A stretch of 64,000 nt of DNA, taken from contig NW_025064926.1 of the NCBI RefSeq assembly GCF_019112545.1, positions 62,001 through 126,000 of the forward strand. The letters run 5' to 3'. The stretch comes from Guyanagaster necrorhizus. Lineage: Eukaryota > Basidiomycota > Agaricomycetes > Agaricales > Physalacriaceae. The position numbers and the translations under genes are program-made. Positions 36,316 to 62,262 of the stretch are shown one piece after another. Under the pieces are notes generated by a model, which searched no databases, had not been told where the DNA came from, and saw only the letters and a program-made list of their open reading frames with translations. Within the stretch, counting starts at the first letter, position 1; every line of letters starts with the position of its first letter.

Positions 36316-36911
36316 CCATTCCAGTAAATATTGTGCCTATATTGGTTTGCTTCTTACTATATGAGAAAGTTGGAGCTGAGTCACTGGGCTTAGCAGATGT
36401 GGTCACATTGGAGGTGGAGGGCTTCATGCCCTGTCCCTGATTCTTGTGATCACCCCATGATAAGATGGACATTTCCACCTTCTGTTACTGCTGCTTTCTG
36501 TATATTGTGATGATTCTTGCCTTCCATTCATCATATCTGATCAAAATGCTGTGTCTAATATTGGAAATAATCTTGAGATAGGAGAGCAGAGCTCCTATCT
36601 TCATATATTTGACCATTCACCCAGTATCAGCAACATCATCCTGGACACCAGTGAGCTTGCTGAGCTGTTCTAACTCATTAAAGTAGTCTGTGGCCAGCTT
36701 GTTGGCCATCTTGAAGTCTTTCATCTTCTGCTTATGGACTTCTTGGACAGTGAGATCTGTGAATTTGTTGACAATCATCTGTTTAAAGACCAGCTATGAG
36801 AGATACTGGTGGTGCAACTGTGTGATGGACCAGAATGTGAGAGAGACAAGAACCCATTATGTTTTGGCTTTGTTTGCCATGTGGGTTGCTATGAACATCA
36901 TCTTGTACATG
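36316..36911 (-). pseudogene. E2 gag middle piece
   Basis: Continues the gag of E2 upstream of the zinc knuckle: a Ser/Thr-rich linker (NVTTSAKPSDSAPTFSY) and, near 36850-36600, the gag core region with the DLTVQEVHKQKMKDFKMANK-type helix, parallel to E5 near 58270-58210. Stops interrupt it. It is cut at 36911 by E3 and continues at 62263. Confidence 0.7.
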
Positions 36912-37409
36912 TGTTACACACATGCTGCCGGCCTCCATGTCACCTCAACCAACCATGAATTCAATCATGCTACCCACCAGACTCTGGCCACTTCCCATTA
37001 CCTACCAATTTCATTTCACCATTATCATTTCACATCTGTATTTCACATTGTAATATCTAGACCCTGAACTCAGTAGTGAATACTGACACCAGAATCCAAT
37101 GGAACCCAACTTGGAATTAGCTACCATTAGTATATAAAGCCATGTACATCATCATAACTATTCAGTTCGAATATCAACTTGGATAAGCCATCTACACTTC
37201 ACACTCACTTCCACTCCTCCCTACCTCATCTGTCAGATTCCACTCTGAAGAATATTCCTATTCACTTCTCTAATGAAACTCTGTTCTGTCCATCCAGATC
37301 CTTGGGCTCTGACTCAAAGGTGACATTGCCAATAGCTTTGTTGATGCCCATGCACTCCACTGAACTCCATGTATGCACTCAAGCCTACTCGATTGGCATG
37401 TTTCTAACA
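36912..37409 (+). repeat. E3 5' LTR
   Basis: Starts TGTTACACACATGCTGCC and ends GGCATGTTTCTAACA, 498 bp. A TATA box (TATATAAAG, 37131-37139) precedes the predicted RNA start near 37163 by about 30 bp. The 3' copy at 61765 is the same length. Confidence 0.88.
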
Positions 37410-41500: not shown

Positions 41501-42991
41501 CTCCACATCAATATCAAACAAGTACAATCTTCTGACCCTACATTCTCTGACAGCCTCCACCAGGCTAAGGCCACTTTGAAATCCTCCCCCTCTCAGTGGT
41601 CCATTGATGAATCAGACATCCTCCACTTTGAAGGCCACATCTATGTCCCAGAGTCTAGAGATCTCTATCTCCATATACTACAGAATAATCACAATCACAT
41701 TTTAGCAGGCCACTTTGGTCAAAACCAGACATTGGAACTAGTCTGGTGGAACTATACCTGGCTAAAGATGTGTGAATACGTCTGACACTATATTAAGTCC
41801 TGCACAGTTTGTGGATGCAATAAGGCACCTAGACACCACCTCTATGGGTTACTCAAACCTCTGCTAATTCCTGAACAGCCATGGGTTTTCATTTCCATAG
41901 ACTTTATTGAACAACTACTGGACTCCAATGGATTCACTGCCATCTTAGTAGTCATAGACCAAGCTAGCAAGCAAGTCATCTTCATTCCCACTCACAACAC
42001 CATTAACTCTGTGGAGCTTGCCCAACTTTTCCTTATCCATGTATTCTCCAAACATAGAGTACCCAGTCACATCACATCTGACTGCGGCTCTGAATTCATC
42101 TCCCAATTTACTCATGCCTTAGCCATGGCCCTTGACATAGAGCTCCATCTTACCTCTAGTTACCATCCAGAGGCCAATGGACAAACCAAACAGGCAAACT
42201 AAACTCTGGAACAGTACATTCGTATCTACTGCTCCTACCAACAGGACAACTGGGACACCCTCCTACCCATTGCTGAATTTGCCTACAACAATGCCCCTAA
42301 CATGTCTACTGGAATTTCCTCATTTTTTGCTAACAAGGGTTACCACCCCAACATCACTGTTCACCCTGAAAGGGACATCACCTCTGCCTGGGCCCAAGAT
42401 TTTGCAGTCAACCTTAATGAACTTTATCAATTACTGAAGGATGAAATTTCTGAAGCTCAGTCTCACTACAAGATCCAAGCAGATAAGCATCAGATTCTGG
42501 CACCCCTATTCACAGTGAAGGACAAGGCCTACCTCAGCTTCAAACATATTAAAACCACCTGCCCAACCAGAAAATTTTCAGAAAAATACCTTGGTCCTTT
42601 CAAAATCATAGCCCAACCTGGTACTCACTCCTTTACTCTGAGGCTTCCACCAGATCTCTGGTCCACTCACCCTGTCTTCCATATGTCACAATTGGAACCC
42701 ATAGAATAAAACACCATTCCTAACTGAATCCAACCACTACCATCTCCAGTTGAAGTCAATGGAGAAGAACATTTCGAAATAGCCCAAATCCTCAACTCTA
42801 AACTGGACTGCTGGTTCTGCTGCCCACTGTTGTACAAACTCCAGTGGCTAGGATACAAAGGTACTAACAAAGAATTTGCTTAGTTATCAGCCTCTGAGTT
42901 CTCTATTGACAAATTTATTAAAGAATTCCACCACCGATACCCAGACAAACCAGGACCCTTGTCCAAAGTCATTCAAACATCCTATTCCTAA
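38590..42991 (+). pseudogene. E3 pol (PR-RT-RH-IN-chromodomain) with stops
   Basis: The aspartic protease at about 38700-39010 has an intact ALIDSGSSHCFVD active site and a NLVLGYNWL block. The solo LTR S2 interrupts pol at 39419-39952. RT follows, with [13 protein letters not shown], then [15 protein letters not shown] at 40449-40493, but the catalytic box is YLNN (40541-40552) instead of YLDD. RNase H has a VMETDISDYAIAAIL block near 40980, and the integrase zinc motif contains HNHILAGHFGQ. The integrase core has SIDFIEQ, SDCGSEF and a DDE Glu in EANGQTKQ-N-LEQ context. A chromodomain-like EEHFEIAQILNSKLD follows near 42760, ending in a TAA at 42989-42991. At least ten stops are scattered through it, almost all explained by C-to-T or G-to-A changes. 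Confidence 0.82.
39419..39952 (-). repeat. Solo LTR S2 in E3 pol, 5-bp target duplication GAACC
   Basis: Begins TGTTAAGCCCAAATCCC and ends AAAAATCGTAACA, 534 bp, bracketed by GAACC at 39414-39418 and 39953-39957. It belongs to the E4/E5 LTR family. It keeps about 15 CpG, far more than the other LTRs, so it is the youngest or least mutated copy here. Confidence 0.9.
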
Positions 42992-44038
42992 TACAATGCT
43001 ACTCTGGACACCACCAGCACCCCACCTTACCATTTCAATTCTAACCACTAATTACTACCATTTCAATTACTCTTACACTTTTAAATCAAAATCTTGTATT
43101 TACATTTTCTTTCTCCACTACCAACATCTGATGCCTTTTTCTATATACTTCATACAAATATTTTACAAAAAAGCAGAACCTGACAGGCCTGCACCAGAAC
43201 CCAAACTCTCCCTCTGCTCCTTCAACTCCTCTATATCCTTGTCCAGCCCCTTCAACATTGCCTCCCAAAGATCCTCCACCTCCTGATCTCTCTCATCCTT
43301 GAAAATCAGTCAAGCCTTCTTTCAGGCCTCCACCTCAGACTCTGAAAACAGCTCCAAAAGAGACAACATATCATCAAAACCATAGTCATCTTGAAGACCT
43401 GCCACAGTACTATGAATATCCACCACCTCGTCCACCAACTCATCCACACAATGCATCAACTTGCATATCAATTTTGAAAGTTGGTGGAGACCAGCAGAGA
43501 CCTTCACACTGCTGATCACCTCACTTGTGGTGACACCCTTGTTGAATGAACAGGTGGTTTTCTTGACCTTGCAGTGAGAGCAAGTTCACCCTTGACTGGC
43601 ATCTTTGGTTACCAGTTGTGCATAACACTATGCACCATCTTGACAACAATGCACACAACTCCCTGAAAACAAAAGCTAAGTTAAGCCATAAAAGAAAACC
43701 AAGACACTTACTTTCACCATCCAACAATTCTTTGCCCCCTGCTGGTCCTGCCACTTCCAACTTCATCTGCTTTTTGGAGCTAACAACCATCTCTGTCCCA
43801 CTACCATCCACTACACTCTTTGACCTGAACTTGCATTTACAGCCCTTCTCTGCTGGATCCACTACCCTTCTCTTTCCCTCTTGCACCTTCTTCCTCCTCT
43901 CCAGAGTCCCCTCGGATTCCTCAGACTCATTGTCCCCCTCAGTCTCTTTGTCCTGCTCATCATTGGACTCTGGAGGCACAGGGTGAGCCACCTTCTTGAA
44001 GCAAAGACCAGGGCCAGGACTAAACTGTTCCACCAACT

Positions 44039-44569
44039 GTTACGATTTTTCCTATTTTCTTCCTATTTTTCTTTCTTTTTCCTTGGAAATGACCCCTATC
44101 TTTGCTTAGTCAGGGTGCTTAGGCCAGCGCTTAGGACTGTGGGAAAGCTTGGTCAGCAACCCAGTCAGTCAGTATCATACTGTATGGCTATGTGCTGTGA
44201 AGGGAGAGACAATGTCCCTTTTGTCCTCCAACTGCAGCGCAGCAGTAACAGCACACAGCAGGACAATAGCTTTTGTGGGGAGACTGGCAATGGTAGGGGA
44301 AACAGCATAACAGCAAGACAACAGCTTTTGTGAACATTTATTTATAGTACGATAACAGAACAGTATTTAAGTAGCTCAGTTCTCGCTGTAATACCCCAGT
44401 CTCGAACTAAAGTTTTACTTCACCATCTTATCTTGAGCTCCTACTACTTGCAATGCCTTGACCTCACAACACTCTCATCATATCAGTGAACTCAGTCGGA
44501 CATACCCAAAGTGCAAGATACTGAACTGTTTATCACATGTTGATTGTCATATGGAATTTGGGCTTAACA
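44039..44569 (+). repeat. E4 5' LTR
   Basis: Starts TGTTACGATTTTTCC and ends TTTGGGCTTAACA, 531 bp. A TATTTAA box lies at 44364-44370, and the predicted RNA start, AGTCTCGAACTAA, at 44398-44410. Confidence 0.92.
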
Positions 44570-44570
44570 A

Positions 44571-44583
44571 TTAGTTCGAGACT
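44571..44583 (+). promoter_or_regulatory. E4 self-priming primer site
   Basis: TTAGTTCGAGACT lies one base after the 5' LTR and is the exact complement of 44398-44410 within that LTR. The match of 13 of 13 bases, about 30 bp downstream of the TATA-like box, fits priming by the RNA's own 5' end, as in Tf1/sushi elements, and no tRNA end (TGG start) is seen. Confidence 0.8.
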
Positions 44584-44624
44584 TCTTGCTTCTCTTCTCA
44601 AGTCTAAATTGCTTTGAGAACTGA

Positions 44625-44771
44625 ATGCCCCCTACCTTAAATCCATCTGACCCAAACTTTACTCACGAGTTCTTTGAACTCTTGGCTTCTATCATAGGAA
44701 CCTTGATCGGTTTATTGGTGATCATACAGCTGTGCTGTGGATGCCAATCTATTACTGCCTGGGCTATTTGA
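44625..44771 (+). CDS. E4 ORF0: small protein with a membrane segment before gag
   Basis: The ATG at 44625 opens MPPTLNPSDPNFTHEFFELL followed by a strongly hydrophobic run (ASIIGTLIGLLVIIQLC), long enough to span a membrane once. A TGA at 44769-44771 ends the frame; in E5 the same position is CGA and the frame continues with HYHEFQHIRTIL to residue 77, so the E4 stop is probably a CpG mutation. The same peptide is recognisable in E5 (60831-60598) and, broken, in E6 (about 24430). The gag frame overlaps its 3' half in another frame. A membrane ORF in front of gag is unusual for Ty3/gypsy elements; the function is unknown to me. Confidence 0.6.
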   Translation: MPPTLNPSDPNFTHEFFELLASIIGTLIGLLVIIQLCCGCQSITAWAI

Positions 44772-44808
44772 CACTACCAAGAGTTCCAACACATCCATAC
44801 GATCCTTC

Positions 44809-47628
44809 GAAATGTCACATCAGACCTCCCCTTCCATGACATCCCTGCCTCTGTCCAAAACTCCATCCGACACCCCAAAGAAACAGAAGACGAGCCTGAG
44901 AGCTCAACTCAAAGACGTTCTAGGGAAGAGGAGCAGCAGCAGCAGCAACACGGATACCCTCCAAGACTCCCGTCGGCAGTCATCTGAGACCCTGGAAACC
45001 CTTGGGCTACAGGGTTTCAACGATCCTGACCCAACACCCCTGCCCCCACCCCCGAGCGCAGCATCACTGCATCAAGAACAACTGTTGCCCAGTCTGGAAT
45101 TGGGTGCTGGACTAGAGACTCCCTGGATGCCATTCAGATGGCTCCAGGCACCAGAAGTACTGCAAGGAGCAGTACAAGAGAAACAAGGGTCAGTAGCCCT
45201 GACCCCTTCTTCGATGACACCAACAGAAGCAAAGTCCAATACTGGCAAGCAGCATCAAGAGCAGCCAGTAGACTGGAACAGGAGCAAGGAGGAACTCCAT
45301 GCCTACCAAGGTGTGATTCAGTGGTACCAAACTCAATACGGCCAACCCTCCACTCCCTTGCCAGATACCTCGATACCACAGCCAGCACTCCTGACTCTCC
45401 GATCTAAAAACTGGCCACTCCTATCAGTGAGCCCGATCCCTGAACCGGACCAGCCAGAGTCATCCATGCTGATGACTACCATCGGGGGGAGCTGACACTC
45501 CTCGACGACGACTGCTCATTATCATATGGGACAGACACCATCGCTGAAACTGACAATATCCCCATCTGAGGAGATAGGATACCATCAGACCTTGGATCAA
45601 TCAGGGGTGATGACAAACATATTGACCCCACCGGGGACCTCAAAAGGGTCCTCGATGGGTCAATCGCCACCCTCTTCCTCCACCCCCACTTCTACAGAAA
45701 CTTCCACCAGTATCGCAGAGCAGTGGCACCGCCAGCAGAAGGAGAGGAGGAGCAGTCCGACTGGGAGCCTGCTCTCTGACTCAGATCCGATGATGCTGAG
45801 TCAAGTACTCAGCCCCGACCTACTCGCCCCAGAAACCTTCAGCCAGCATGGCAGTTCCCTCTTCAGAGGGACCACCGACAAGAGAGCTGAAGGGGATGAT
45901 GAGGCTGAGGAGGAGGACCAAGAGGGCCCAGTGGTGGACTCCATCCTTGAATGGGGGAGCATCGTCAGCATGACCACACACCAAGAACAGGAAAAAAAGC
46001 GATGAGAACGAGAAGCATGGGAGGAGGAGTTTGTTTGGCTATACCAGAAACAGGTAGCCAAATTATGGAGGGATGATCGCTGGCTGCGATTGTCCCTGGG
46101 GCGAAGGTATGTGGCTGCTGATCCTGTGGAATGGGAGGAGATTTTACAGTATGCTACGACTGAGCATGCCATTTTTAATTTCAATCAGTGCTTCTTACAC
46201 TATCAGATGATGATGATGCCACCATATCAATCAAGATTTGGCAAATGGGAAGCACCAAAGCCATGGATGCCAAGTGTAATACCACCCAAAATAGCAAACA
46301 CGGCATCCTCAATACGAATAGCAACATCAAGGTACTCATTTGCCACATCAGCCGTCCGCAGCATGGCATCTCGGCTGACCTGGTCCTATGCGCAGCTAAG
46401 GATTTACCACCCGAATCCCTGGACCAGCACAGGAAGCCGATTACTAGGGGGACAGCCACCTCCTGATGAGACAACTGGGTCAGCACCGGCCAATGAGAAG
46501 AAGGATGACCCTGAGGCAATGGTGCAAGGATGGACTATCAAAGATGGGAGGATCATCAAGAAGGAAGGCCCATCAGTGCCAAGAAGCCCTGTCACTGATG
46601 ATGGGTCCTTACATTCCTTTCCAGGGCCCCCGATGGATTGGGCTGGTCCCCCTGGAGGGGAACTTCCAAATCCGATGTCATCTCTTGATCCGAAGGTGCA
46701 TATATTAAATGTCAGGCCAACACTTAGATGGGACCCTCTTCCCTTTAAAGGGGCTTCAGACGATATCAACCGATTCCTCATGGACTGCGACCAGTATTTT
46801 CAGGTCTTTGCCTCGTACTTCCTTTATGATATGTACAAGGTGAACTACACTACCACCTACTTTAAGAATAAGGCAAAAGTATGATGGGTATTATTGGCCC
46901 CTAACTTCTGGTCGACCACGCGGCAATGTAACCGATACCCTGCCTGGGCAGTATTGAAGCAGATGATCTATGACAAGTTCACGGATCCAGCGGTCCGAGA
47001 AGTCCACAAGGCAAAGATGAAGGAGTACAAGATAGGCGACAAGGTGGCACCCAACTACTTCGACAAACTGGAATGACTCAGAAAACTCGCAGGAGTCCAG
47101 GAGGACATCACTGACTCAGAACAGATGGTCGAGTACATGAAGCAGGGAGTGCCACCTCATTACCTGAAGACCATTTCAGATCTTGGCCATAGTGTGCCAG
47201 TCGGCTATGACGATTGGAAGGTCCGAATCGTCCTAATGTGGCAAGAACGACAGCGACAGAAGGCAGAGGCAATAAACCTGTGGGACCAGCACAGGTACCA
47301 GGGACAGGGCTCGAGGCCCTCCATCTCTCACATGATCACGTCCGCCAGGCCTGGCAGCTCAGCCCCAACTTCCAAGAATGACGGGAAGCAAACTGGTAAG
47401 GGCCCAACTACCAGAACAGGCAAGCAGACTGACATGGATCATCTCAAGAAGGAGAGAAAGTGCTTCAATTGTGGCCAACCAGGCCACATGGCACAGAACT
47501 GTCTGGAGAAGAAGAACAAGCGCACGCGGGAGGACATCAGGGCACAAATTGCTGAACTAACAAAGGAGACACAGGACCTTGGAGATGACGACAAACCTGA
47601 GGAGGTAAAAGACAGGGCCAAGCAGTAG
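44809..47628 (+). pseudogene. E4 gag with internal TGA stops
   Basis: A single frame (codon starts 1 mod 3) can be followed from MSHQTSPSMTSLPLSK at 44809 to the TAG at 47626-47628, about 940 codons, broken by TGA at 45493, 46003, 46882 and 47074. Blocks in order are a low-complexity Ser/Pro/Gln region, a WEEILQYATTEHAIFNFNQ helix near 46135-46190, a DDPEAMVQGWTIKDGRIIKK block and a LHSFPGPP motif. Then come the retrotransposon gag core, GASDDINRFLMDCDQYFQVF, near 46750 and the zinc knuckle CFNCGQPGHMAQNC (47464-47505), followed by a charged tail. Every stop is TGA and explained by CGA or TGG. The product would be the particle protein. The true start may be further upstream in the ORF0 overlap. 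Confidence 0.82.
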
Positions 47629-50600
47629 GCGATTCAACTGCCTTGGCCAAAGAAACGAGTAATGAGTCACAATCTGCTGGACAGACTGACATTTTATCCT
47701 CTCTAGTATTACCACCTATGCCTAAATTATGCGTGCATTTGAATATACCTGACCCCATTACTCAGAAACTAGAATCGCCCAAGGAATCGACTTCTATAAC
47801 TCAAGCACCGACGAAGGGCCAAAGAAGGGCAGAGAGCCCTAATAAAGGTACATCAACATTTAAAGTTCATCAAACTAAAAATATAGAACAGACTCAACTG
47901 CCTTCAGACCAAACAGGGGCAGCACACTCCACCACATGGCTCAAACTATTCAACACCAAATGGACATGGCGAGCCATCAAAGATGCCAAGGACGAAGAAA
48001 TGGCAAAAGCTGTACTCAAGAATTGGGTACACAAAACCCACCTCGAAGAAGTGATTGATGATATGATCACAGGAATGTGAAAAGCAGAGAGATGCTGGGC
48101 CCTAGAATGGCTTGACGAACTACATGGACCATAAAAGTTCATTCGATGAACTAAATCCTCAGGACAGGATCTAATAACCAAGGCACAGATCGAGACATTG
48201 ACGTCTCGATCTACCCATGCAGTCACCACTCTGATCAATAGCAGCTGCATGGGGAGTTCCATCAATCGAACCTTCATCACCAAACACAAACTGCCAATAT
48301 GGGCAACAGCAGCACCAATTCCCATCTATAATGCAGATGGAACAAAGAACCAAGCAGGATCGATCACCAAATACGTAGAGCTCTGGCTCACCATCAGCGA
48401 TCACTCAGAACGGATCAACTTAGCCGTAACCAACCTAGGAATAAGGGAGGTATTCCTTGGACATGATTGGCTAATCAGACATAATCTGTTAATTAACTGG
48501 AAAACCAGGCACATCATCTTTGCACGATGTCACTGCTGGAAAATTCCATTTGAACTACTGGATGAAGATCCCGAGGACTGATGGGATGAGGAAATAGAAG
48601 ATGGCAAAACAATACTCGCCGTCAATATACAAAGGGCCATTAGCATTTGTGCAATGCACCATGCTAATGACCTAGCAGCAAAGGCTAATGCTGGAAAGGA
48701 GGAAAAAACATTCAAAGAAATGGTACCTATGTGAGCACACGATTACCAGGATTTATTCAAAAAAGAAAGTTTCGATGAACTACCTGACGCAAAACCCTGG
48801 GACCACATGATTGAATTAACTCCTAACACTAACACCAACCTAGATTGCAAGTGCTATCCACTTAGCAATAATAAACAACAGGAACTGGACAAGTTCTTGA
48901 AAGAGAACTTATCCAGTGGGAGGATCTGGCCATCAAAATCACCAATGGCGTCACCCTTCTTTTTTGTTAAAAAGAAGGATGGGAAGCTCCGACCAGTACA
49001 AGATTATCGGAAGTTAAACGAGATGACGATCAAGAATCATTACCCACTTCCTTTAATCTCGGAGCTAATGGATAAACTTCAGGGTGCAAAGTACTATACC
49101 AAACTGGACGTTCGGTGGAGGTACAACAATGTGCATATCAAAGAAGGCGATGAATGGAAGGCAGCTTTTCGAACTAACCGTGGTTTGTTCGAACCGACGG
49201 TCATGTTCTTTGGACTAACCAATTCACCGGCCACCTTCCAATGGATGATGAATGACATCTTCAAAGATCTCATTGCCATGGGGAAGGTCACAATCTATCT
49301 GGACGATATACTCATTATGTCCAAAAAGAAGGAAGAACACTGAATGATAGTATGGCAGGTGCTATCTTTGATGAGGAAGCATCAACTCTTCCTCAAGGCT
49401 GAAAAATGTGAGTTCGAGATACTGGAAACAGAGTACCTCGGAGTCATTATCAGTGAAGGAAGCATTCGGATGGATCTCATCAAAGTAGCAGGAATAACCG
49501 AATAGCCAGAACCAATGAAGAAGAAGGAATTACAATCTTTCCTTGGATTCACCAACTTCTACCAATGGTTCATCTGAGACTATAGCAAAATAGTCCATCC
49601 AATGACACAATTGACCAGAAATTCCCCATGGAGCTGGGGAATTTCCCAGTGAGCAGTGTTTGATGATCTTAAACACCAACTGGCTGAAGACATCATCTTG
49701 GCCATACCAAGCCAAGATGGGAAATTCCGAGTGGAAGCCGACTCTAGTGAAGGCACAGTTGGAGCCATACTCTCACAGGAGCAGGACAATAAATGGCGAC
49801 CAGTTGCATTTATGTCAAAGGTGCTCACAGTAACTGAGCACAACTATGAAATCTATGACAAAGAACTCCTCACCATAATGCTCGCCCTTGCCAAATGGCA
49901 GCATTATCTCATTGGAGCTAATCAGACTTTCGAGATCTGGACAGATCACCAGAACCTCTGATACTTCCAACAACCACAAAAGCTGAATCACAGACAGGCC
50001 AGATGGGTTATGGAACTATCTGAATATGAATACATGCTCCATCACAAAGCTGGAGTAGCAAACAAGAAAGCCGATTTCCTCAGCCACAGGGTGGATCATA
50101 ACCAAGGAGGAGATGACAACAAGGAGGTCATGTTACTATGGCTGAAACACTTCCGGGCAATGGTCATGTCCATGGAAGAAGAGATGCATGAACGCATCAA
50201 AAGTGCCACTCGGGATCCACACAAGTGGGATCAAAGAATAGCCCCATCACTCAATCACGAGCATGGGCTAAAGAAAGAAGGAGGATTGATCCACTATGAT
50301 GAGCAGATCTATATCCCAAGAGATCAAAAGCTATGGGGTGATATCATCACCACATGCCATAATCATGTGACCGCCGGACACCCTGGGATTGCTAAAACTA
50401 AGGAACTAGTCTTGAGGGAATATTGGTGGCTGAAAATGGACCATGATATCACCTGATATATCAAGGCTTGCGAGGTCTGCCAATGAGGCAAGACTTCAAC
50501 ACAACTCAGAGCAGCACCACTCCACCCAAATGAGGTCCCTTCATCATCATGGACCCACATTTCGGTGGATATGATAACTGGACTCCCTGAAAGTGACGGC

Positions 50601-51917
50601 TATAATGCAATCATCATCATCATCGATCGCTTCTCGAAGGCAATCATTCTGATCACCTGCTTGACAGAACTGACATCCAAGGGATGGGCAAAAATACTAT
50701 GAGATGAGGTTTATGCAAAATACGGCATGCCTCAGATAGTGATTTCAGACAGGGGACCACAATTCATGTCCAAATTCTTGGATGACTTATACAGACTCCT
50801 CAACATCAAAAGGAATGCTTCAACGGCATATCACCCACAGACAGATGGCCAAATAGAATGGGCCAATCAAGAAATTGAAAAGTATCTATGACTTTTCATC
50901 AGCTACAGACAAGATGACTGGACAGAATGGCTAGCATTAGCAGCATTCCAACATAACAACAGAATTCACTCCGCCACTGGGAAAACACCGTTCTTTGTGA
51001 ACTATGGGTGAAATCCACCAGTTGTGCAAACTGGTCAGATTCATACAACAACACCAGCCTCAATGGACTTTGCAACAACAATGGCAAAAATCCACGAGAA
51101 AACCAAGGCTGCACTCGACAAAGCCACTTTAACCATGAAAAAGCAGTATGACAAACACAAGAGACCAGAACATGAATATTCAACCAATGACAAAGTTTGG
51201 TTGGATACAACAAACCTTCACTTACCGAGGCCAAAACGAAAATTGGCCAACAAATGGACAGGCCCCTTCAAAGTAATCAAAAAAATCGGCAACTCTGCAT
51301 ACAAGTTGCAGCTCCCAGCGACTTGGAAAGTCCATGATGTCTTTAATGAAGCATTATTGACACTATATGTGGCACCAGCCTTTCCAAACCAAGAGCATCC
51401 ACCTCCACCACCAACAGAACTCATTGATGACGAAGAACATTATGAAATCGATGAAGTTCTAAATCACAAAACACGTCATGTTAAAGCACGCAGTGGAGGC
51501 ATGACAACAACTATTGACTATCTAGTCAGCTAGAAGGGTTATGGTCTGGAGTCAAACCAATGGGTCAACGAAAAATATATGAACATGAAAGATGCAATCT
51601 GAGATTACAAGCACAGAATCAACAAAATGGACACCAACAGTGGTCATGTTTAATATTATATCCGAAAAAGATGCGGCAACAATGGGAACAGGATGATATC
51701 TAGTCAGATATACATCAACCAACCTGCTGACAGCAGAGGACATGTACAAGAGAATGATGAAGATGACTCTGTCCATTCCTTCAACCAACCTGGCAATACC
51801 ATTAACGAAAGACAGCAGGATGATGAAGATGGTGGTCGGACATATAACCCAAACAACCAGCCTTCAATGGGTTCAGCAGATCGGCCATCTCCTGCTAGCC
51901 ACGACAACTTATTCTAA
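47601..51917 (+). pseudogene. E4 pol: PR, RT, RNase H, integrase, chromodomain, with many stops
   Basis: The pol frame opens just after 47600 and overlaps the gag end by about 28 nt in the -1 frame. The protease near 48198-48560 has LINSSCMGSSINRTF where DSG is expected. RT at 48807-49560 has [20 protein letters not shown], the YLDD box (near 49300) and LGVIISEGS. RNase H at 49656-49961 has RVEADSSEGTVGAILSQEQ. The zinc-binding HNHVTAGHPG..CEVC precedes the integrase core with VDMITG, ISDRGPQF and the DDE Glu in ANQEIEKY. The chromodomain near 51425-51610 has YEIDEVLNHKTR and KGYGLESNQWVNEKYM. A polar tail ends at 51917. Upwards of 15 in-frame stops are all C-to-T or G-to-A products of CGA, TGG or CAA. 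Confidence 0.88.
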
Positions 51918-51954
51918 CTTAACCATCGGGACAATGGTCTTAAGGAGAGGGTAA

Positions 51955-52486
51955 TGTTACGATTTTTCCTATTTTCTTCCTATTTTCCTTTCTTTTTCCT
52001 CAGAAATGACCCCTATCTTTGCTTAGTCAGGGCACTTAGGCCAGCACTTAGGACTGTGGGAAAGCTTGGTCAGCAACCCAGTCAGTCAGTATCATACCAT
52101 ATGGCTATATGCTGTGAAGGGAGAGACAATGTCCCTTTTGTCCTCCAACTGCTGTGCAGCAGTAACAGCACATAGCAGGATAATAGCTTTTGTGGGGAGA
52201 CTGGCAATGGTAGGGGAAACAGCATAACAGCAAGACAACAGCTTTTGTGAACATTTATTTATAGTACGATAACAGAACAGTATTTAAGTAGCTCAGTTCT
52301 CACTGTAATACTCCAGTCTCGAACTAAAGTTTTACTTCACCATCTTATCTCGAGCTCCTGCTACTTGCAACACCTTGACCCCACAACACTCTCATCATAT
52401 CAGTGAACTCAGTTGGACATACCTGAAGTGTGAGGTACCAAACTGTTTATCACGTGTTGATTGTCATATGGAATTTGGGCTTAACA
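51955..52486 (+). repeat. E4 3' LTR
   Basis: 532 bp with the same ends as the 5' LTR and preceded by the purine tract AAGGAGAGGGTAA (51942-51954). It differs from the 5' LTR almost only by transitions, several of them TG opposite CA. Confidence 0.92.
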
Positions 52487-52807
52487 CCAACACTTGATGC
52501 AGCTAGAAATCAACAGCCTCCATGGAGGTTATTTGCAACCCATCCTCCATAACCATCCTCTCTGACTCTACCTCCTCAGTTTCAGCCCTCACCACTGTCT
52601 TTACTGCCTCCCTCTCCTCAGCCTCCCTCTGAGCTGCCTCTCTCAATGCCTCCTCTGCCTCCTTCACTCACCTCTCTGTGGCCTGCCAAACCTCCTCTCT
52701 CTTCCTCTCCAATTTCTCTCTCTGCTCCTTTTTCCATGACTTCCAGGCCATATGGTCCACCCAGGCTCTCTCCTCCCACTCCCGCTCCCCTTGCCATTCC
52801 AAATGGC

Positions 52808-53350
52808 TGTTAAGCCCAAATTTCACATAACAATCAACACGTGATAAACAGTTCGGTACCTCACACTTCAGGTATGTCCAACTGAGTTCACTGATATGAT
52901 GAGAGTGTTGTGGGGTCAAGGCGTTGCAAGTAGCAGGAGCTCGAGATAAGATGGTGAAGTAAAACTTTAGTTCGAGACTGGGGTATTACAGCGAGAATTA
53001 AGCTACTTAAATACTGTTCTGTTATCTGACTATTAATAGCTGTTCACAAAAGATATTGTTCTGCTGTAGAGCTGTTACCCCTGCTGTTGCCAGGCTCTCC
53101 ACAAAAGCTGTTGTCTTGCTGTTGTGCTGTTACTGCTGTTACTGCTGCACTGCAGTTGAAGGACAAAAGGGACATTGTCTCTCCTTTCACAGCACACAGC
53201 AATGCGATAGGAGAGTGACTGACTGGGCTGCTGAGCTAAGCATTCCCATGGTCCTAAGTGCCAGCCTAAGTGCCCTGACTAAGCAAAGATAGAGGTCATT
53301 TCCAAGGGAAAAGAAAAGAAAATAGGAGAAAAATAGGAAAAATCGTAACA
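52808..53350 (-). repeat. E5 3' LTR
   Basis: Begins TGTTAAGCCCAAATTTC and ends AAAAATCGTAACA on the plus strand; 543 bp. The purine tract complement TTACCCCCTCCTTAAG follows at 53351. Confidence 0.92.
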
Positions 53351-53382
53351 TTACCCCCTCCTTAAGACCATCATTCTGATGG

Positions 53383-56300
53383 TTAAGTTAGGGAAGACCC
53401 CCCTCCTTCAGAAGGAGGTGGCCGATCTGCTGGACCCATCCGTCGGTTTGAAGATTCATAAAGACATTGACCATTGGTTGGGTTTTTCTCTAGTCGCAGG
53501 ATCTCGAACTGCGAGAGCAGTTGGTCGTAGGTGCCTTCCATCGTTATGTCGTGACTTTCTGTTTGTCGCAGGCTGCCTGTGGATTCATTGTGTACTTGGG
53601 TGACATTGCTCTTTGTTGTATGTCCCATAGTAACTTTGTTGTTGCACAGTTCATAGTCGTGAATTGCATCTTCCGCATTCATGTATTTCTTGTTGACCCA
53701 CTGGTTTGACTCGGGTCCATAGCCTTTTCAACTAACCAAGTAATCGATGGTTGTTGTCATGCCTCCACCCCATGCTTTAACCCTTCGGGTTTTGTGGTTT
53801 AGAACCTCATCGATTTTATAATGTTCTTCATTGTCGATGAGTTCAGCTGGTGGTGGAGGTGGTCATTCCTGGTTTGGAAAGGCTGGTGTGATGTATGGTG
53901 TCAACAATGTTTCGTTAAAAACATCATGAATTTTCCAAGTTGCTGGGAGCTGCAACTTGTATGCGGATTTGCCAATTTTCACGATCACCTTGAAGGGTCC
54001 AGTTCGTTTGTCTGCCAGTTTCTGTTTTGGCCATGGGAGATAGAGATTCGTTGTATCCAACCAAACTTTGTCATTGGTTGAATATTCATGTGCTGCCCTT
54101 CAGTGCTTGTTGTACTGTTTCTGCATTGCTGAAGCAGCCTTTTCAAGGGCAATCTTGGTCTCTTCATGGATCTTTGCCATTGTCGTTGTGAAGTCCATTG
54201 AAGCAGGTGTTGTTGTATGAACCCGACCAGTTTGCGCAACTGGTGGGTTCCATCCATAATTCACAAAGAACAGTGTTTTACCTGTTGCAGAGTGAATTCG
54301 GTTGTTGTGCTGGAATGCTGCAAGTGCAAGCCATTCCGTCCAGTCATCCTGTTGATAACTGATGAAAAGTTGCAAGTACTTTTCAATCTCTTGGTTGGCC
54401 CATTCTGTTTGGCCATCTGTCTGTGGATGATATGCCATTGAGGCATTTCTCTTGATGTTGAGGAGCTGGTACAAATCGTCCAAGAATTTGGAAACAAATT
54501 GTGGCCCTCTGTCTGAAATCACTACTTGAGGCATGCCATACTTTGCATAAACCTCATCCCATAGTATTTTTGCCCATCCCTCAGATGTCAATTCTGTTGA
54601 ACAGGTGATTGGAATGATCGCCTTCGAGAAGCGATCGACTATGATGATGATTGTGTCATAGCCATCACTTTCAGGAAGTCCGGTTATCATATCCACTGAG
54701 ATGTGGGTCTATGGTGACGAAGAGACCTCATTCGAGTGGAGCGGCGCTGCTCTGGGTTGTGTTGAAGTCTTGCCTCATTGACAAACTTCGCATGCTTTGA
54801 CATATCGGGTGATATCATGGTCCATTTGAGGCCACTAATATTCCCTCAAGACCAGTTCCTTGGTCTTAGCGATTCCAGGATGTCTGGCAGTCACATGATC
54901 ATGACATGTGGCAATGATATCACCCCGCAGTCATTGATCTCTTGGGATATAGATCTATTCATCATAACAGATCAATCCTCCTTCTTTTTTCAGCCCACGC
55001 TCATGGTTGAGAGATGGGGCTATTCTTTGATCCCATTTGTGGGGATCTCATGTGGCGCTCTTGATGTGTTCATGCATCTCTTCTTCCGTGGGCATAATCA
55101 TTGCCTGGAAGTGTTCCGATCATAGTAACGTGACCTCTTTGTTGTCATCTCCTCCTTGGTTATGATCCACCCTGTGGCTGAGGAAGTCGGCCTTCTTGTT
55201 TGCTATGCCAGCCTTGTGGTGTAGCGTGTACTCATATTGTGATAGTTCTGTGACCCATCTAGCTTGTCTGTGATTAAGCTTTTGTGGTTGTTGGAAATAT
55301 CAGAGATTTTGGTGATCTGTCCAGATCTCAAATGTCTGAGTGGCTCCAATGAGATAATGCCACCATTCGGCAAGGGCAAGCATTATGATGAGGAGTTCTT
55401 TATTGTAGATTTCATAGTTGCGCTCCATAACTGTGAGTGCCTTTGACATAAATGCAACTGGTCACCATTTATTGTCTTGTTCCTGGGACAGCACGGCTCC
55501 AATTGTGCCTTCACTGGAGTCGGCTTCTACTCGGAACTTCCCATCTTGGCTTGGTATAGCCAGGATGACGTCTTCTGCTAATTGGTGTTTAAGGTCATTA
55601 AATGCTTCCCATTGGGAAATTCCCCAAGTCCATGGGGAATTCCCGGTTAATTGTGTCATTGGTCAGACTATTTTGCTGTAGTCTCTAATGAACCAGCAGT
55701 AGAAGTTTGTGAATCCTAGGAAGGATTGAAGCTCCTTCTTCTTTGTCAGTTCCGGCCACTCGGTTACTCCTGCTATTTTGATGGGATCCATCCAAATGCT
55801 TCCTTCGCTGATAATGACTCCGAGGTATTCTGTTTCTAATACCTCGAACTCACATTTTTCAGCCTTGAGAAAAAGTCGATGTTTCCTCATCAAGGACAGT
55901 ACTTGTCATACTATCCTCCAGTGTTCCTCCTTGGTTTTAGTCATGATGAGTATATCATCCAAATAGATTGTGATCTTTCCAGTGGTGATGAGATCTTTGA
56001 AGATGTCGTTCATCATCCACTGGAAAGTGGCTGGTGAATTGGTGAGTCCAAAGAACATCACCGTTGGTTCGAATAGGCCACGATTGGTCTGGAAGGCGGC
56101 CTTTCATTCGTCGCCTTCTTTAATGTGTACGTTGTTATACCCCCATCAGACATCCAACTTGGTATAATATTTGGCACCTCAGAGTTTGTCCATTAACTCT
56201 GCGATTAAGAGAAGTGGGTAATGATTCTTGATCGTTATTTCATTTAGCTTCCGATAGTCTTGTACCGGTCGGAGCTTCCCATCCTTTTTTTTGATGAAAA

Positions 56301-57640
56301 AGAAGGATGATGCCATCGGTGACTTTGATGGTTGGATCCTCCCACTGGATAGGTTCTCTTCTAAGAACTTGTCCAGTTCCTGTTGCTCGTTATTGCTAAG
56401 TGGATAGCACTTGCAATCTAGGTTGGCATTGGCGTTAGGAGTTAATTTGATGGCATGGTCTCAGGGTTTTGTGTTGGGTAGTTCATCGAAACTTTCTTTT
56501 TCGAATAAATCCTGAAAATCATGGGCCCATATGGGTACCATCTCCTCGAACATTTTCTCCTCCTTTTCCACATTGGCCCTTGCCGCTAGGTCATTAGCAT
56601 GGTGTGTCTGAATGTTAATGGCCCTTTGGAGGTCAATAGCCAAGATTGTCTCACCATCCTCCATTTCCTCATCCCACCGATCTTTAGAGTCTGCATCCGG
56701 TAGTTCAAATGGGGTTTTGCAGCAATGACACCAGGTGAAAATGATGCGTTCGGTTTTCCAATTGATTAGTGGGTTGTGTCTAATCAGCCAGTCATGTCCG
56801 AGGAAGATTTCTTTGGTCCCAAGATCTGTTACTGCCAGGTCGATTCTTTCTGAATGATCACCGATGGTGAGCCTGAGCTCAACATACTTGGTAATTGACC
56901 TGGCTTGGTTCTTGGTTCCATCTGCGTTATAAACAGGGATAGGGGTTGCCGTTGCCCTAGTAGGTAATTTATGCTTGTTGACGAAAGCTCTGTTGATACT
57001 GCTTCCAGTGCAGCTGCTGTTGATTAAGGCAGTGACTGCATGGGTTGATCGGGATGTTAACATCTCGATCTGAGCCTTGGTTAATAAGTCGTGCCCTGGA
57101 ATTTTAGTTTGCTGGATGAATTTCCATGGGCCATGTAATTCATCCAACCATTCCAGGGCTCGACACCATTCTGCAGCTTTCATCCTGGTGATCATTTCAT
57201 CGATCACTTCCTCAGCTCGGGTCTTGTGTACCCAGTTTTTAAGTATGGCTTTCACCGTTGCCTCATCCTTGGCATCTTTGATGGCTCACCAAGTCCATTC
57301 AGTATCAAATGGCTTGAGCCATGTTGTGGGGTTCTCTACCCCTGTTTGGCCTGAAGGCGATTGAGTCTGCTTCATATTTTTAGTTTGATGAACTTCTAAT
57401 GAAGACGTACCTTTATTAGGGCTCTCTGCCCTTCTTCGGCCCTTCATCGGCACTTGAGTCATAGAAGTCAGTTCCCTAGGCGATTCTGGTTTCTGGATAA
57501 TGGGGTCGGGTATATTCGAATGCACGCATAATTTAGGCATGGGCGGTGATACTAAAGGAGATAGAATGTTAGTCTGTCCAGCAGATTGTGACCCGTTACC
57601 CGTTTCTTTAGCTGAGACAGTTGAATCGCCTACTGCTCGG
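53383..57640 (-). pseudogene. E5 pol: PR, RT, RNase H, integrase, chromodomain
   Basis: Read from 57640 downward. The longest open part is 57255-56461 (264 codons), including the protease with LINSSCTGSSINRAF, again lacking DSG. RT runs at about 56450-55660, RNase H at about 55659-55300 with FRVEADSSEGTIGAVLSQ, and the integrase core at 54696-54100 (198 codons) with DMITGLPESDGYDTIIII, ISDRGPQFVSKF and ANQEIEKYLQLF. A chromodomain near 53830-53690 has KIDEVLNHKT and a TAG in place of the Trp before KGYGPESNQW. The tail ends at 53383. The same -1 frame relation to gag as in E4 holds. The RT and chromodomain regions carry stops, so no full polyprotein is possible. Confidence 0.88.
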
Positions 57641-60600
57641 CCCTGTCTTTTACCTCCTCGGGCTTATCGTCATGCCCAAGGTCCTCGTCTTCCTTCATCA
57701 ATTTGGCAATCTGCGCTCGAATTTCTTCCCTGATGCACTTGTTCTTCTTCTGAGGGCAGTTCTGTGCCATATGGCCCTTCTGGCCACAATTGAAACACTT
57801 CCCCCCCTTTTTGAGGTGATCCACATCCATCGGCTGACCCGTTCTGGTATATGTCATGCCTGTACCGGTTTGCTTTGTTCTATAAGAAGTTGAGGTCGAG
57901 CCCCCAAGCTTGGCAGATGTGGTCGTACTGGGGTTAGGGGGCCTCGGACCCTGTCTCTGTCCCTGGCTTCAATGGCCATAGGCCAGGGTGGTCGCTTCTG
58001 CCTTCTGTCATTGTCATTCCTTGTACATCATGATGATTCAGCTCTTCCATTCGTCATAGCCGATGGGTATATTCCGGCTGATGTCTGAGATGGTTATGAG
58101 GTAATGGGACAGCAAGCCCATTTTCATATATTCGACCATTCATCCAGTGTCAGCAACATCTTCCCGGACTCCTGTGAGAGTGCCGAGTCATTCTAATTCA
58201 TCGAAGTAATCCATAGCTGGCTTTCTAGCCATCTTGAATTCCTTCATCTTCTGTTTGTGGACTTCCTGGACTGCGGGATCTGTGAATTTGTCCCTGATCA
58301 TTTGTTTGAAGACTGGCCATGCAGGGTATCAGTGATGGTCCCTGGTAGTAGACCAGAAAGTGGGGGCAATTAGAACCCACCACACTTTGGTCTTGTCTGC
58401 CATGTGAGTGATGGCAAACATTACTTTGTACATGTCGGTGAGGAAGTATAGGGCGAATACTTGAAAGTATTGGTCGCAATCGACCAGGAAACGATTGATA
58501 TCATTGGATGCTCCCCGAAAGAGGCAGGGCTCTGCGCAAAGGATTGGTTTGACCTGAAGAATTTGAGCGGCGGCATTGAGGGCAGGCATCAGATTCGGGA
58601 GTCCACCATAGGGCAGCTGTGCCTATCCCTTTGGAGGCCCTGGGAATGAATGAAGGGATCTGTCATCGGCGACAGGACTTCCCGGCTTTGGGGCTTCCTT
58701 TCGCATGATCCTCCCATTCCTAATAGTCCAACCCTGGGCAAGCGCTTCAGGGTCATCTTCAGTTGGGGGAGGCGGTTCCAGTACTGGAGCCTCACTGCCT
58801 TCAGCCTCATCTGGAGGTGGCTGTCCAGCAAAGGGTCGCAGAAAAGGTGGCAGTCTCCATGATCCGGGATGATGCCAGGCTGCCTGTGGTCGGCTCCTGA
58901 CAAGCCAAGAAGCCATGCTATGAACGGCTGATGTGGCAAACGAGTACCGAGAAGATGCTGTTCAAATTGAAGATGCCATGTCTGCCGTTTTGGACAGCAT
59001 TATGCTCGGCATCCACATTCTTGGTGCCATTCTTCTGCCGTACTTCGGCTTGTATGGTGGTAATGGTCCCATCTGATAATGTGAGTATCTCTGATTAAAA
59101 TTAGAAATGGCCTGCTCAGTGGCCGCATACTGCAGAATCTCCTCTTTTTCAATAAAATCCGCAAAAGTATACCTTTGTCCCAAGGACGATCTTAACCAAA
59201 GATCGTCCTTCCACAACTCAGCTACCTGCTCTTGGTACAGCCGAGTGAACTCCTCCTCCCTTGCCTTGTGTGCTTCTCATCGCAATTCTTTGTCTGTCAT
59301 TAGTTTGAATCTCTCCTTCCAGCTAGAGAGAAGATCCCCGCCCTCCTGATGGAGGTCCACCTCCTCGGCCTCGTCGTCCACGTCGGTTCCCTCCTCGTCC
59401 TCAGGGAGGGAACTGCTGAGCAGGTCATAGATTGCCAGCTCGGTCAGACTGGGGCTGCGTACTGGGCCTAGCATCACTAGGTCCAGGGTGAGGAGTAGGC
59501 TGTCATTTGGGCTGCTCTGGCAGCTTCTCGACGCTTGTTGTTGCTCCTGGCACTATTGCTCTGCGATACCGATGGAAGTTTCTGTAAAACTTCGGGTTGA
59601 GGAAAAGGGCTGCAAAGGCCCCATCGAGGAACCTCTTGAGATCACCGGTGGGGTCGATACCCTCATCATCTCCCCCGATGGTGCCTCTTTCAGCTGGAAT
59701 TCCATCTCCTCGGACTGGGATGTCCTCCATCTCTGCAATGGTATCAGTCCTGTAAGATAACAGGCGGTTGTCATCGAGGTGGGGCTGGGTCTCTTCTTCA
59801 TGGTAGTCGGCCCAGGGATCAGGCTCACTGGCGGGGATGGCAGGTTCCCTGAAAGGTGAGTCAGGCGTGGTGGTTCTGACAATGGTTGTGGTTCTACTAC
59901 CTCCCTCGCCTCTTCTACGCTCCTCTGCTGCTCATGCCCGGAGGTACCTTCCAAAGAGGGTGTTCTCCCTCATAATCTCATTGTCGATATATGCCTGGTC
60001 CTGCCTGTACTCGGGAAGGTCTTGGGCACGTTGTACCGGGTTCTCTCTTGAGGGGTCTGGGACGACGGGGCTGGCTGGTCGCGTTCTGCTTGGTACCGCT
60101 GGTACGCTTTCTGTTCTGCTAGTATTACTGCCAACTGGGCGGTGCTCCAGCCTGTCGGCCTTGGTGGCAGTGGCTCGCCACCAGTGGCGCTCGTTGCTGT
60201 CGTCGTGCCAGTAATTATTGTTTCTGCTGTTAATGCTGCTGTGTCGTGTAGATGGAGTATGTCAGGACCCGCAGCCCCTGGAACCACTGGTTCCTCAAGC
60301 CATCCATGAGACATCCAGGGAGTCTCAAGCACGGTGCCCAAGGCTGGTGCTAGAGGCAGGAGTTGTTGGCCTGGTTGCTGGGATACTGTGCTGGAGGAAC
60401 AGGATGGGGGTGTCAGGTCTGGGTCATCAGAACCCTGCAGCTCAAGGGTTGTCAGGGTTTTGGATGACTGCTGTCAGAGGTCATGGGGGGTATGTGTGCT
60501 GCTGATGCTGCTCCTCTTCTTCTTCCCTAGCATGCCCTTGAGCCAAGCTCCCAGAGACACTTTTTGGGTCAGTTCCTTCAGCAGGTTGAAAAGACTGTCA

Positions 60601-60677
60601 GGCAGAGGCAGGGATATCGTGGAGGGGGAGGTCTGGCATGACATTGCAGAGGATGGTTCGAATATGTTGGAATTCAT
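57630..60677 (-). pseudogene. E5 gag with frame breaks
   Basis: From 60677 (MNSNIFEPSSAMSCQTS) downward come the low-complexity Thr/Pro region with LETPWMSHGWL near 60330, the RYTFADFIEKEEILQYAATE block near 59170, and GQPPPDEAEGSEA and WTIRNGRIMRKEAPK near 58840-58700. These are followed by the gag core GASNDINRFLVDCDQYFQVF near 58520, a linker, and the zinc knuckle CFNCGQKGHMAQNC near 57795-57754, ending at a TAG at 57630-57632. The blocks are collinear with E4 gag. Several stops and at least one frameshift separate them. The start region overlaps ORF0 in another frame, as in E4. Confidence 0.8.
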
Positions 60678-60831
60678 GATAGTGCCTGATTGTCCAAGCT
60701 ACGATCGATTGGCGTCCATAGCACAGCTGTATGATCACCAGAAGACCGATCAAGATTCCTATAATAGATGCCAAGAGTTCAAAGAACTCATGGGTAAAGT
60801 TTGGGTTAAAAGGGTCAAGGGCAGGAGGCAT
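60598..60831 (-). CDS. E5 ORF0: small protein with a membrane segment
   Basis: An intact 77-codon frame: MPPALDPFNPNFTHEFFELL, a hydrophobic run (ASIIGILIGLLVIIQLC), then GRQSIVAWTIRHYHEFQHIR and a DLPLHDIPASA end. It matches E4 ORF0 at most positions through the membrane segment and beyond the E4 stop. It starts about 45 bases from the primer site, so it is the first ATG-led frame on the element RNA. No cleavable signal peptide is evident because the N-terminal 20 residues are polar; a single-pass anchor is more likely. Confidence 0.65.
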   Translation of the reverse strand: MPPALDPFNPNFTHEFFELLASIIGILIGLLVIIQLCYGRQSIVAWTIRHYHEFQHIRTILCNVMPDLPLHDIPASA

Positions 60832-60873
60832 TCAGTTTCTCAGCACAATTGGGCTTGAGAAAAGGAATGAGAA

Positions 60874-60886
60874 AGTCTCGAACTAA
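60874..60886 (-). promoter_or_regulatory. E5 self-priming primer site
   Basis: On the minus strand this reads TTAGTTCGAGACT, one base from the 5' LTR, and is the exact complement of the LTR segment 61047-61059, which lies about 30 bp downstream of the TATTTAA box at 61087-61093. Confidence 0.8.
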
Positions 60887-60887
60887 T

Positions 60888-61508
60888 TGTTAAGCCCAAA
60901 TTCCACATGACAATCAACACGTGATAAACAGTTCGGTACCTTGCACTTCGGGTATGTCTGACTGAGTTCACTGATGTGAAGAGAGTGTTGTGAGGTCAAG
61001 GCATTGCAAGTAGCAGGAGCTCAAGATAAGATGGTGAAGTAAAACTTTAGTTCGAGACTAGGGTATTACAGCGAGAACTAAGCTACTTAAATACTGTTCT
61101 GTTATCTAACTATTAATAGCTGTTCACAAAAGATATTGTTCTGCTGTAGAGCTGTTACCCCTGCTGTTGCCAGGCTCTCCACAAAAGCTGTTGTCTTGCT
61201 GTTGTGCTGTTACTGCTGTGCTGCAGTTGAAGGACAAAAGGGACATTGTCTCTCCCTTCACAGCATACAGCAACTGCTGTTGTGCTGTTACTACTGTTAC
61301 TGCTGCACCGCAGTTGAAAGACAAAAGAGACATTGTCTCTCCCTTCACAGCACACAGCAACGTGATAGGAGAGTGACCGACTGAGCTGCTGAGCTAAGCA
61401 TTCCCACAGTCCTAAGCACCAGCCTAAGCGCCCTGACTAAGCAAAGATAGGGGTCATTTCTAAGGGAAAAGAAAAGAAAATCGGAGAAAAATAGGAAAAA
61501 TTGTAACA
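60888..61508 (-). repeat. E5 5' LTR with internal tandem duplication
   Basis: 621 bp, 78 longer than its 3' partner, because a segment containing GCTGTTGTGCTGTTACTGC and the AAAGGGACATTGTCTCTCCC motif is present twice in tandem at about 61190-61365. Ends are TGTTAAGCCCAAATTCC and AAAAATTGTAACA. Confidence 0.9.
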
Positions 61509-61764
61509 ATGGCTCTCCATGGCTTCTGCATATTCTTTCTCTGCAGTTCGCCATTCCAGATGAAACAATTCCTTGGCCTCTTCAAGGCCATCAGGGGTGG
61601 ACCCCCTCATCAGAGGCTTGAGAGTGCATGAGCGATGACATAGGCAAAGATGGTGGTTTCAGTACAAGCTGCAAAACTCCCACAGCCATCAACAATTTTC
61701 CATATGGCTCCACCAGCCATCGGGATCTGCACTCTTGAGGGCAAGAACACTAAGGGGAGGATAC

Positions 61765-62262
61765 TGTTACATGCATGCTGCCAGCCTCTATGTCACCTCA
61801 ATCAACCACGAATCCAATCATGCTACCCACTGGACTCCAGCTGCTTTCTATTACCTATCAATTTCATTTCACTATTATCATTTCACATCCATATTTCACA
61901 TTGTAATATCTAGACCCTGAACTCAGTAGTGAATACTGACACCAGAACCCAATAGAACCTGACTCAGAATTAGCTACCATTAGTATATAAAGCCATGTAT
62001 ATCATCATAACTACTCAGTTCGAATATCAACTTGGATAAGCCATCTACACTTCGCACTCACTTCCACTCCTCCCTACCTTATCCATCGGATTCTGCTCCA
62101 AAGGATATTCCTATTCACTTCTCTAATGAAACTCTGTTCTGTCCATCCAGATCCTTGGGCTCCAACTCAAAGGTGATGTTGCCAATAGCTTCGTCAACAT
62201 CCATGCACTCTACTGAACTCCATCCATGCACTCAAGCCTACTCAATTGGCACACTCCTAACA
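61765..62262 (+). repeat. E3 3' LTR
   Basis: Starts TGTTACATGCATGCTGCC and ends GGCACACTCCTAACA; 498 bp, equal in length to the 5' LTR, with mostly transition differences. The ACATG duplication follows at 62263-62267, and the gag of E2 then continues. Confidence 0.9.

Follow-up and report, generated by a model that had tools for sequence, protein, structure and literature searches.

The window analysed here, a 64,000-nucleotide (nt) stretch of fungal DNA, contains a Ty3/Gypsy-type long terminal repeat (LTR) retrotransposon, E3, that carries a minus-strand gene between pol and its 3' LTR, antisense to the element itself. The gene has a predicted intron and a second exon with a six-Cys motif, and it occupies the normal place and orientation at 133 of the 150 pol ends that were scored across the genome. 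Because it is present at so many pol ends and diverges in step with pol, we regard it as a resident part of the family. We somewhat favor the reading that it is an accessory gene of this Ty3/Gypsy-type family, putatively transcribed from the 3' LTR and spliced, which encodes a nuclear, Cys-rich, coiled-coil regulator of the element. The predicted transcription from the 3' LTR, the splicing and the nuclear regulator function are the parts of this reading that we infer.

In the window, the gene lies within the ACATG target duplication of E3 and is interrupted by two further LTR elements, E4 and E5. Its pieces are as follows.

43163..43662, minus strand: exon 2, carrying the motif CX2CX6C-X14-CX2CX6C and four in-frame stops (three TGA, one TAG)
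43663..43711, minus strand: predicted intron of 49 nt, GTAAGT..CTTAAC..TTTCAG (CT..AC on the plus strand)
43712..44037, minus strand: 3' piece of exon 1, with basic stretches
52492..52807, minus strand: middle, Glu/Lys-rich piece of exon 1, a coiled coil as judged by eye, with two in-frame stops
61514..61764, minus strand: 5' piece of the antisense gene, reaching the 3' LTR, with ATG at 61610 and 61641; 17 nt shorter than in the relative L029

The coding pieces (97 + 316 + 326 + 500 nt) sum to 1239 nt, or 413 codons including the final stop. An earlier interpretation made from the letters of the window without database searches (the sequence-only reading) had proposed a minus-strand gene of about 413 codons in this place, starting at 61610 and split by E4 and E5 with their exact target duplications, and these points were borne out: the duplications are CCAAC and ATGGC, the intron has exactly the boundaries given to it, and both CX2CX6C motifs are present in exon 2. 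In L029, a relative that lacks E4 and E5, the gene is contiguous, its pieces adjoining at 7066-7928, 7938-8257 and 8253-8524 between the end of pol at 6894 and an LTR that begins at about 8525. The arrangement proposed for E3 thus stands, with two corrections. E4 starts at 44038, and the E3 copy is a pseudogene, dead on account of its six in-frame stops, its shorter 5' piece and the two inserted elements.

The sequence-only reading had also suggested looking for the same antisense gene in other E3-type elements and outside elements. The genome searched comprises 53.3 Mb in 109 contigs; the pol-end search scored 150 of 2,032 candidates and the gene search 150 of 282, and genome-wide counts are lower bounds. 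Besides the 133 pol ends with the gene in its normal place and orientation, six have a partial gene (L048, L049, L060, L063, L065, and L068), four have it displaced by 1.9 to 3.4 kb, and seven have none in the stretch read (L046, L047, L051, L053, L056, L057, and L059). In L057, an E4-like LTR directly follows pol, so the gene may lie beyond it. These figures were reached in steps. A first pairing of the 150 by 150 scored matches placed an antisense gene at 873 to 987 nt (median, 963 nt) from 110 of the 150 pol ends and at 2.7 to 3.4 kb from three others; no same-strand pair of gene and pol within 2.5 kb was found among these matches. For the remaining 37 pol ends, a second gene search with a diverged copy found 8 genes at the usual position and another 1.9 kb away, an intron donor match placed 1 more, and comparison of the stretches revealed the whole gene or most of it in 14, one of which (L066) is without about 220 nt at the gene 3' end.

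In 13 copies that were read, three of which are the same as L029, L031, and L032/L033, the gene and a 3' LTR were present in all 13 and the pol end in 12 (absent from L023), and 17 of the 41 LTR matches listed sit 1417 to 1469 nt from the gene, as a 3' LTR. The claim that the gene lies inside the ACATG duplication of E3 was confirmed and extends to all four full-length elements checked (E3, L029, L031, and an element on contig C55), in each of which the gene is enclosed by 5-bp target duplications; the duplication of L031, TATCC, is placed 2 nt past the LTR end. The LTR pairs of these four are 86.7 to 92.8% identical, with 88.96% in E3. Insertion of the gene into the E3 copy alone was ruled out by the arrangement in L029 together with the family-wide occurrence.

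As for copies outside elements, 40 gene matches had no scored pol partner, and the flanks of 20 were examined. Pol was found in 15 of these, and in the other five (L075, L076, L080, L083, and L087) element sequence still stands beside the gene: L080 has lost an internal part of the element, and L075, L076, L083, and L087 retain element spacer. No free-standing gene copy was present among these 20 of 40 flanks, an answer to that suggestion for half of the matches without a scored pol partner.

Divergence of the gene follows that of its carrier. In a comparison of 26 copies, gene distances were correlated with pol distances (Mantel r = 0.81; 0 of 2000 permutations). Three gene-less copies, L046, L047, and L051, in which the sequence passes from close to the pol end into the last 80 to 100 nt before the LTR, all nest in the pol tree within a gene-bearing clade with short branches and are therefore secondary deletions. 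A gene-less ancestral state was ruled out by this nesting and by the junctions, since L047 and L051 have a common junction at a repeated ACCAACA, unlike that of L046. By LTR distance L047 and L051 are mutually nearest (0.047), whereas the pol tree, with weak support and 339 nt from L051, does not pair them; this conflict would be explained either by one deletion that spread or by the same repeat being used twice. If gene-less copies were mobile after the loss, the gene either acts in trans or is dispensable. The sequence-only reading had named other E3 copies lacking the gene, together with a separate insertion boundary in E3, as evidence that would overturn it. Gene-less copies do exist, but they are deletions, and E3 shows no separate insertion boundary. 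A mirror image of these copies is seen in L080 (C22:818000-819520), in which most of pol is gone and the antisense gene end is kept.

The intron has a consistent form in the family. All 24 aligned copies have a GTAAGT donor and a (C/T)AG acceptor, and a branch-like CT(T/C)AAC or TTTGAC was seen in 23 of them, being unclear in L043. The intron measures 49 nt in 16 copies, 51 nt in 6, 54 nt in 1, and 48 nt in 1; although lengths of 49 and 51 nt differ modulo 3, both exons retain the phases required by splicing. Predicted splicing of the antisense transcript is supported by these features. The six copies with a 51-nt intron are L034 to L037, L039, and L040, five of which read open through the intron for at least 370 codons and L040 for 337; as 51 is a multiple of three, unspliced RNA of these six copies would also be in frame. 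An intron donor probe gave at least 188 matches in the genome (94 + 94), in contrast to a spliced-junction probe (up to three mismatches), which gave a single match, on contig C2, in surroundings without homology to the gene or pol. Intron-less retrocopies were rejected on this basis, for a pattern that strongly diverged copies would escape. The claim that the intron is kept through retrotransposition thus held, and retention of the predicted intron through copying fits replication via sense RNA.

Coding constraint was examined in 57 of 59 aligned copies (L049 and L066 were dropped) for the tree, stop and omega (dN/dS, the ratio of nonsynonymous to synonymous substitution rates) counts, with exon 1 omega calculated on 53 to 54. 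The window copy entered the alignments as the 43160-44039 piece only, columns missing from the reference copy were excluded from counts, and L029, L031, and L033, which are duplicates of L010, L011, and L013, were dropped in one codon-model set. In the gene frame, 18 of 57 copies read through exon 2 without a stop, and in each other frame none does; in exon 1 the corresponding numbers are 14 of 57 and 0 to 3 of 57. A chance frame was rejected, as the five alternative exon 2 frames are all closed. The great majority of substitutions among gene copies are transitions (kappa, 26 to 50), the pattern that cytosine deamination should leave in silenced repeats, and at one exon 2 Arg codon 21 of 58 copies have a stop.

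Because the copies decay by transitions, transversions were used for codon-position counts. In exon 2, transversions at positions 1/2/3 numbered 11/5/23 on internal branches and 23/19/35 on terminal ones, with position 3 in excess on both (p = 0.0009 and p = 0.018, respectively); in exon 1, terminal branches gave 33/42/58 (p = 0.009). Across all copies, omega was 0.775 for exon 2 and 0.742 for exon 1, the lowest of the six frames in each exon. When intact copies only were considered, exon 2 omega was 0.594 (n = 18) compared with 0.934 and 1.618 for the shifted frames, and exon 1 omega was 0.794 (n = 11) compared with 1.093 and 1.154. The six Cys residues average 93% identity in 58 copies, compared with 74% across codons 1 to 45. 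The stop-free frame, the Cys conservation and the codon-position pattern argue for selection on the exon 2 protein. Judged by these substitution patterns, the Cys exon is shown to be under selection, and the signal in exon 1 is weaker. Of the coding conservation that the sequence-only reading had asked for, omega below 1 was found; the values are not very low (0.594 in 18 copies; 0.775 in 57).

The predicted protein combines a six-Cys module, CX2CX6C-X14-CX2CX6C, whose second half has a basic CK.KKT.C stretch, with a KK.xKL-type basic stretch that recurs in the 12 copies printed and is a putative nuclear localization signal. At the two candidate starts, ATG is present in 26 of 40 and in 30 of 41 copies. 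The halves of a Zn2Cys6 cluster are joined by a linker of 5 to 12 residues; here, 14 residues lie between them. This linker length and the Pfam score given below lead us to call the module zinc-cluster-like only. Neither TRP28 (PF04195; matches up to E 10) nor a bZIP family was among the Pfam matches of one copy and then of eight copies, and solved structures gave no match to the gene product up to E 1. Protein searches with the gene product covered 7,993 and 311 candidates of about 268 to 852 residues, a range outside which exon-sized predictions fall, and none matched at E 0.001. In the pol-end control, 2,654 of 2,667 were found; the organisms named among the 120 listed matches to these 2,654 pol relatives are Amanita brunnescens and Armillaria ostoyae, and the host of the family is likely a mushroom-forming fungus.

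Under the reading that we favor, the element would copy itself via sense RNA, in which the intron reads CT..AC and would be no splice substrate; it would survive because copying runs through that RNA. The antisense mRNA would start in U3 of the 3' LTR, head toward pol and be spliced once. Its protein would dimerize through coiled coils (judged by eye), be brought into the nucleus by its basic stretches, use a zinc-binding six-Cys module to contact chromatin or DNA, and determine in trans how family members are expressed or integrated. A more specific version, patterned on HBZ of human T-cell leukemia virus type 1 (HTLV-1), is possible but tentative; it combines a zinc-cluster-like nuclear protein, an antisense mRNA that begins at the 3' LTR and is spliced, a strand-protected intron, family-wide control in trans and gene-less copies that would live off that control. 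Several results weigh against the favored reading. No accepted DNA-binding Pfam family was found; Zn_clus (PF00172) gave 7 bits in one copy, below its gathering score of 21, and was matched in 2 of 8 copies with a best E of 3.9. The best Pfam match, to Telomere_reg-2, was weak; it occurred in 6 of 8 copies with E down to 0.0035, and the copy shown scored 13.1 bits where the cut-off is 23.6. On internal branches exon 1 lacks a codon-position signal (38/30/40; p = 0.24), and its omega ranges overall from 0.74 to 0.90. On the element strand, the frame with the same third positions gives an omega close to that of the gene frame (0.788 in exon 2; 0.779 in exon 1), and in 11 copies the pol end has an omega of 0.597 compared with 0.745 for their exon 2 (exon 1 gave 0.896 in ten of them). 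The existence of gene-less copies means that the gene may be dispensable.

The all-copy omega that is not low, the close mirrored frame and the slight exon 1 codon-position signal would also suit a frame that is a non-coding sequence by-product of the region. Such an origin is highly improbable in view of the exon 2 stop, transversion, omega and Cys results, and of intron lengths that differ by amounts other than multiples of three with both exons still in frame. The sequence-only reading had taken E3 for a cargo system, in which a host transcription-factor-like gene would have been captured and shuttled, and the host-like intron and the zinc-cluster-like motif, which is typical of fungal regulators, agree with that. 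The results did not support it: the family-wide occurrence (133 of 150 pol-bearing copies) and the co-divergence with pol mark the gene as resident, and with no free-standing copy in the 20 of 40 flanks examined and no host relative among the protein candidates of 268 to 852 residues, we consider capture of this kind very unlikely.

Two other alternatives accept a resident gene and place its effect elsewhere. A Cys-rich, basic, coiled-coil protein would also be suited to RNA binding or chromatin tethering and could act after transcription, in particle assembly, cDNA nuclear entry or integration-site choice. We think this unlikely, as the halves are CX2CX6C, unlike the CX2CX4HX4C knuckle of retroviral nucleocapsid proteins, even though a role of antisense open reading frames (ORFs) in nuclear entry is raised in a plant review (PMC7264820). 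The antisense RNA itself might instead be what matters, through double-stranded RNA, self-silencing or transcript interference, with the protein incidental; small interfering RNA can come from antisense transcripts of LTR elements, according to the same review (PMC7264820), and both intron and orientation are conserved. A role of the RNA needs no reading frame, whereas the exon 2 stop-free frame, Cys conservation and codon-position pattern point to selection on protein, and this alternative is accordingly quite improbable. A resident gene for a regulatory protein is the reading that we retain.

The carrier and the elements nested in it have the following parts.

36912..37409, plus strand: 5' LTR of E3, with the ACATG target duplication at 36907-36911
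40000..42991, plus strand: pol region of E3, interrupted by stops, with an SH3_Tf2-1 (PF24626) integrase end in the open stretch 42203-42706
44038..52486, plus strand: E4, an LTR element inside the antisense gene, with the CCAAC target duplication at 44033-44037 and 52487-52491 and RVT_1 in 48735-49340
52808..61508, minus strand: E5, a reversely oriented member of the E4 family, with the ATGGC target duplication at 52803-52807 and 61509-61513 and rve and RVP_2 on the minus strand
61752..61764, plus strand: purine-rich tract preceding the E3 3' LTR
61765..62262, plus strand: 3' LTR of E3, its U3 upstream of the antisense gene, with the ACATG target duplication at 62263-62267

The LTR pair, 5-bp target duplication, purine tract and Tf2-like integrase end are those of a Ty3/Gypsy carrier. 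At approximately 39404-39960 of the window, E3 gag-pol contains a solo LTR of the E4/E5 family; together with E4 and E5, it indicates that this family struck E3 three times. The flanks of E3 (36860-36911 and 62268-62330) as judged by eye, continue into each other and resemble the gag part of E5 (58400-58470), and E3 seems to have been inserted into an older E5-like element. Elsewhere in the window, a 335-residue open frame on the minus strand (17761-18765) matches a Ras-family GTPase (PF00071; E 1.7e-19) and is likely a host gene among the repeats.

An intron in this position would mark the antisense mRNA unambiguously. Functional work could draw on the donor matches of the family, at least 188 in number, on a Cys motif that could be mutated and on copies from which the gene is naturally absent. 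An intron that survives reverse transcription through its position on the opposite strand would be a clean natural case of strand logic.

Among the closest known systems, HBZ of HTLV-1 is the model for what is proposed here, an antisense gene of a retrovirus that is started at the 3' LTR and spliced and encodes a nuclear coiled-coil regulator. The fungal gene would follow the same pattern; HBZ is a bZIP protein, whereas the fungal gene matches no bZIP family. The Zn2Cys6 cluster (PF00172) resembles the fungal module in having two CX2CX6C halves, and the module has a basic stretch in its second half; it differs in that the module has a linker of 14 residues, the basic half comes second and the Pfam score is far under the cut-off. 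Among the open-access papers listed by literature searches, neither an example from a basidiomycete nor an antisense element gene with an intron was recognized.

Antisense ORFs between pol and the 3' LTR are described, in PMC7264820, for Grande1, RIRE2, Retand, and PvRetro13 and, in fungi, for Boty; the roles of such genes in plants and Botrytis are there called still undetermined, and antisense spliced transcripts are said to deserve a look. The plant genes of the aORF-3R class (Grande gene23, RIRE2, PvRetro13) share with the fungal gene the antisense slot and presence in most copies, and the Grande product is reported to be nuclear (PMC7264820). They differ in that the accessible text of PMC7264820 nowhere uses the word intron and leaves a Cys module unmentioned, and no Pfam family in common was found. 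Retand, whose antisense ORFs with TRP28 occur in 97% of clusters and are predicted to bind DNA (PMC11963269), is alike in its family-wide antisense ORF, its slot and its predicted DNA binding; PF04195 is unmatched by the fungal family gene, and an intron is unmentioned in the accessible text of PMC11963269. The fungal counterpart is brtn, the antisense gene of Boty/BcGypsy1 in Botrytis cinerea, credited to Zhao et al. 2011 in PMC7264820 and PMC8365987. It, too, is an extra antisense gene of a fungal LTR element and is grouped with the antisense ORFs between pol and the 3' LTR (PMC7264820); its host is an ascomycete, whereas the present one is likely a basidiomycete, and brtn was compared by its description in these two papers. 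The gene described here shares with the aORF-3R class its location between pol and the 3' LTR, its orientation antisense to gag-pol, its presence in most copies, and a conservation like that of the element proteins, if somewhat weaker (exon 2 omega of 0.745 compared with 0.597 for pol). Antisense genes in this slot are therefore known; what is new is the antisense intron together with the six-Cys motif.

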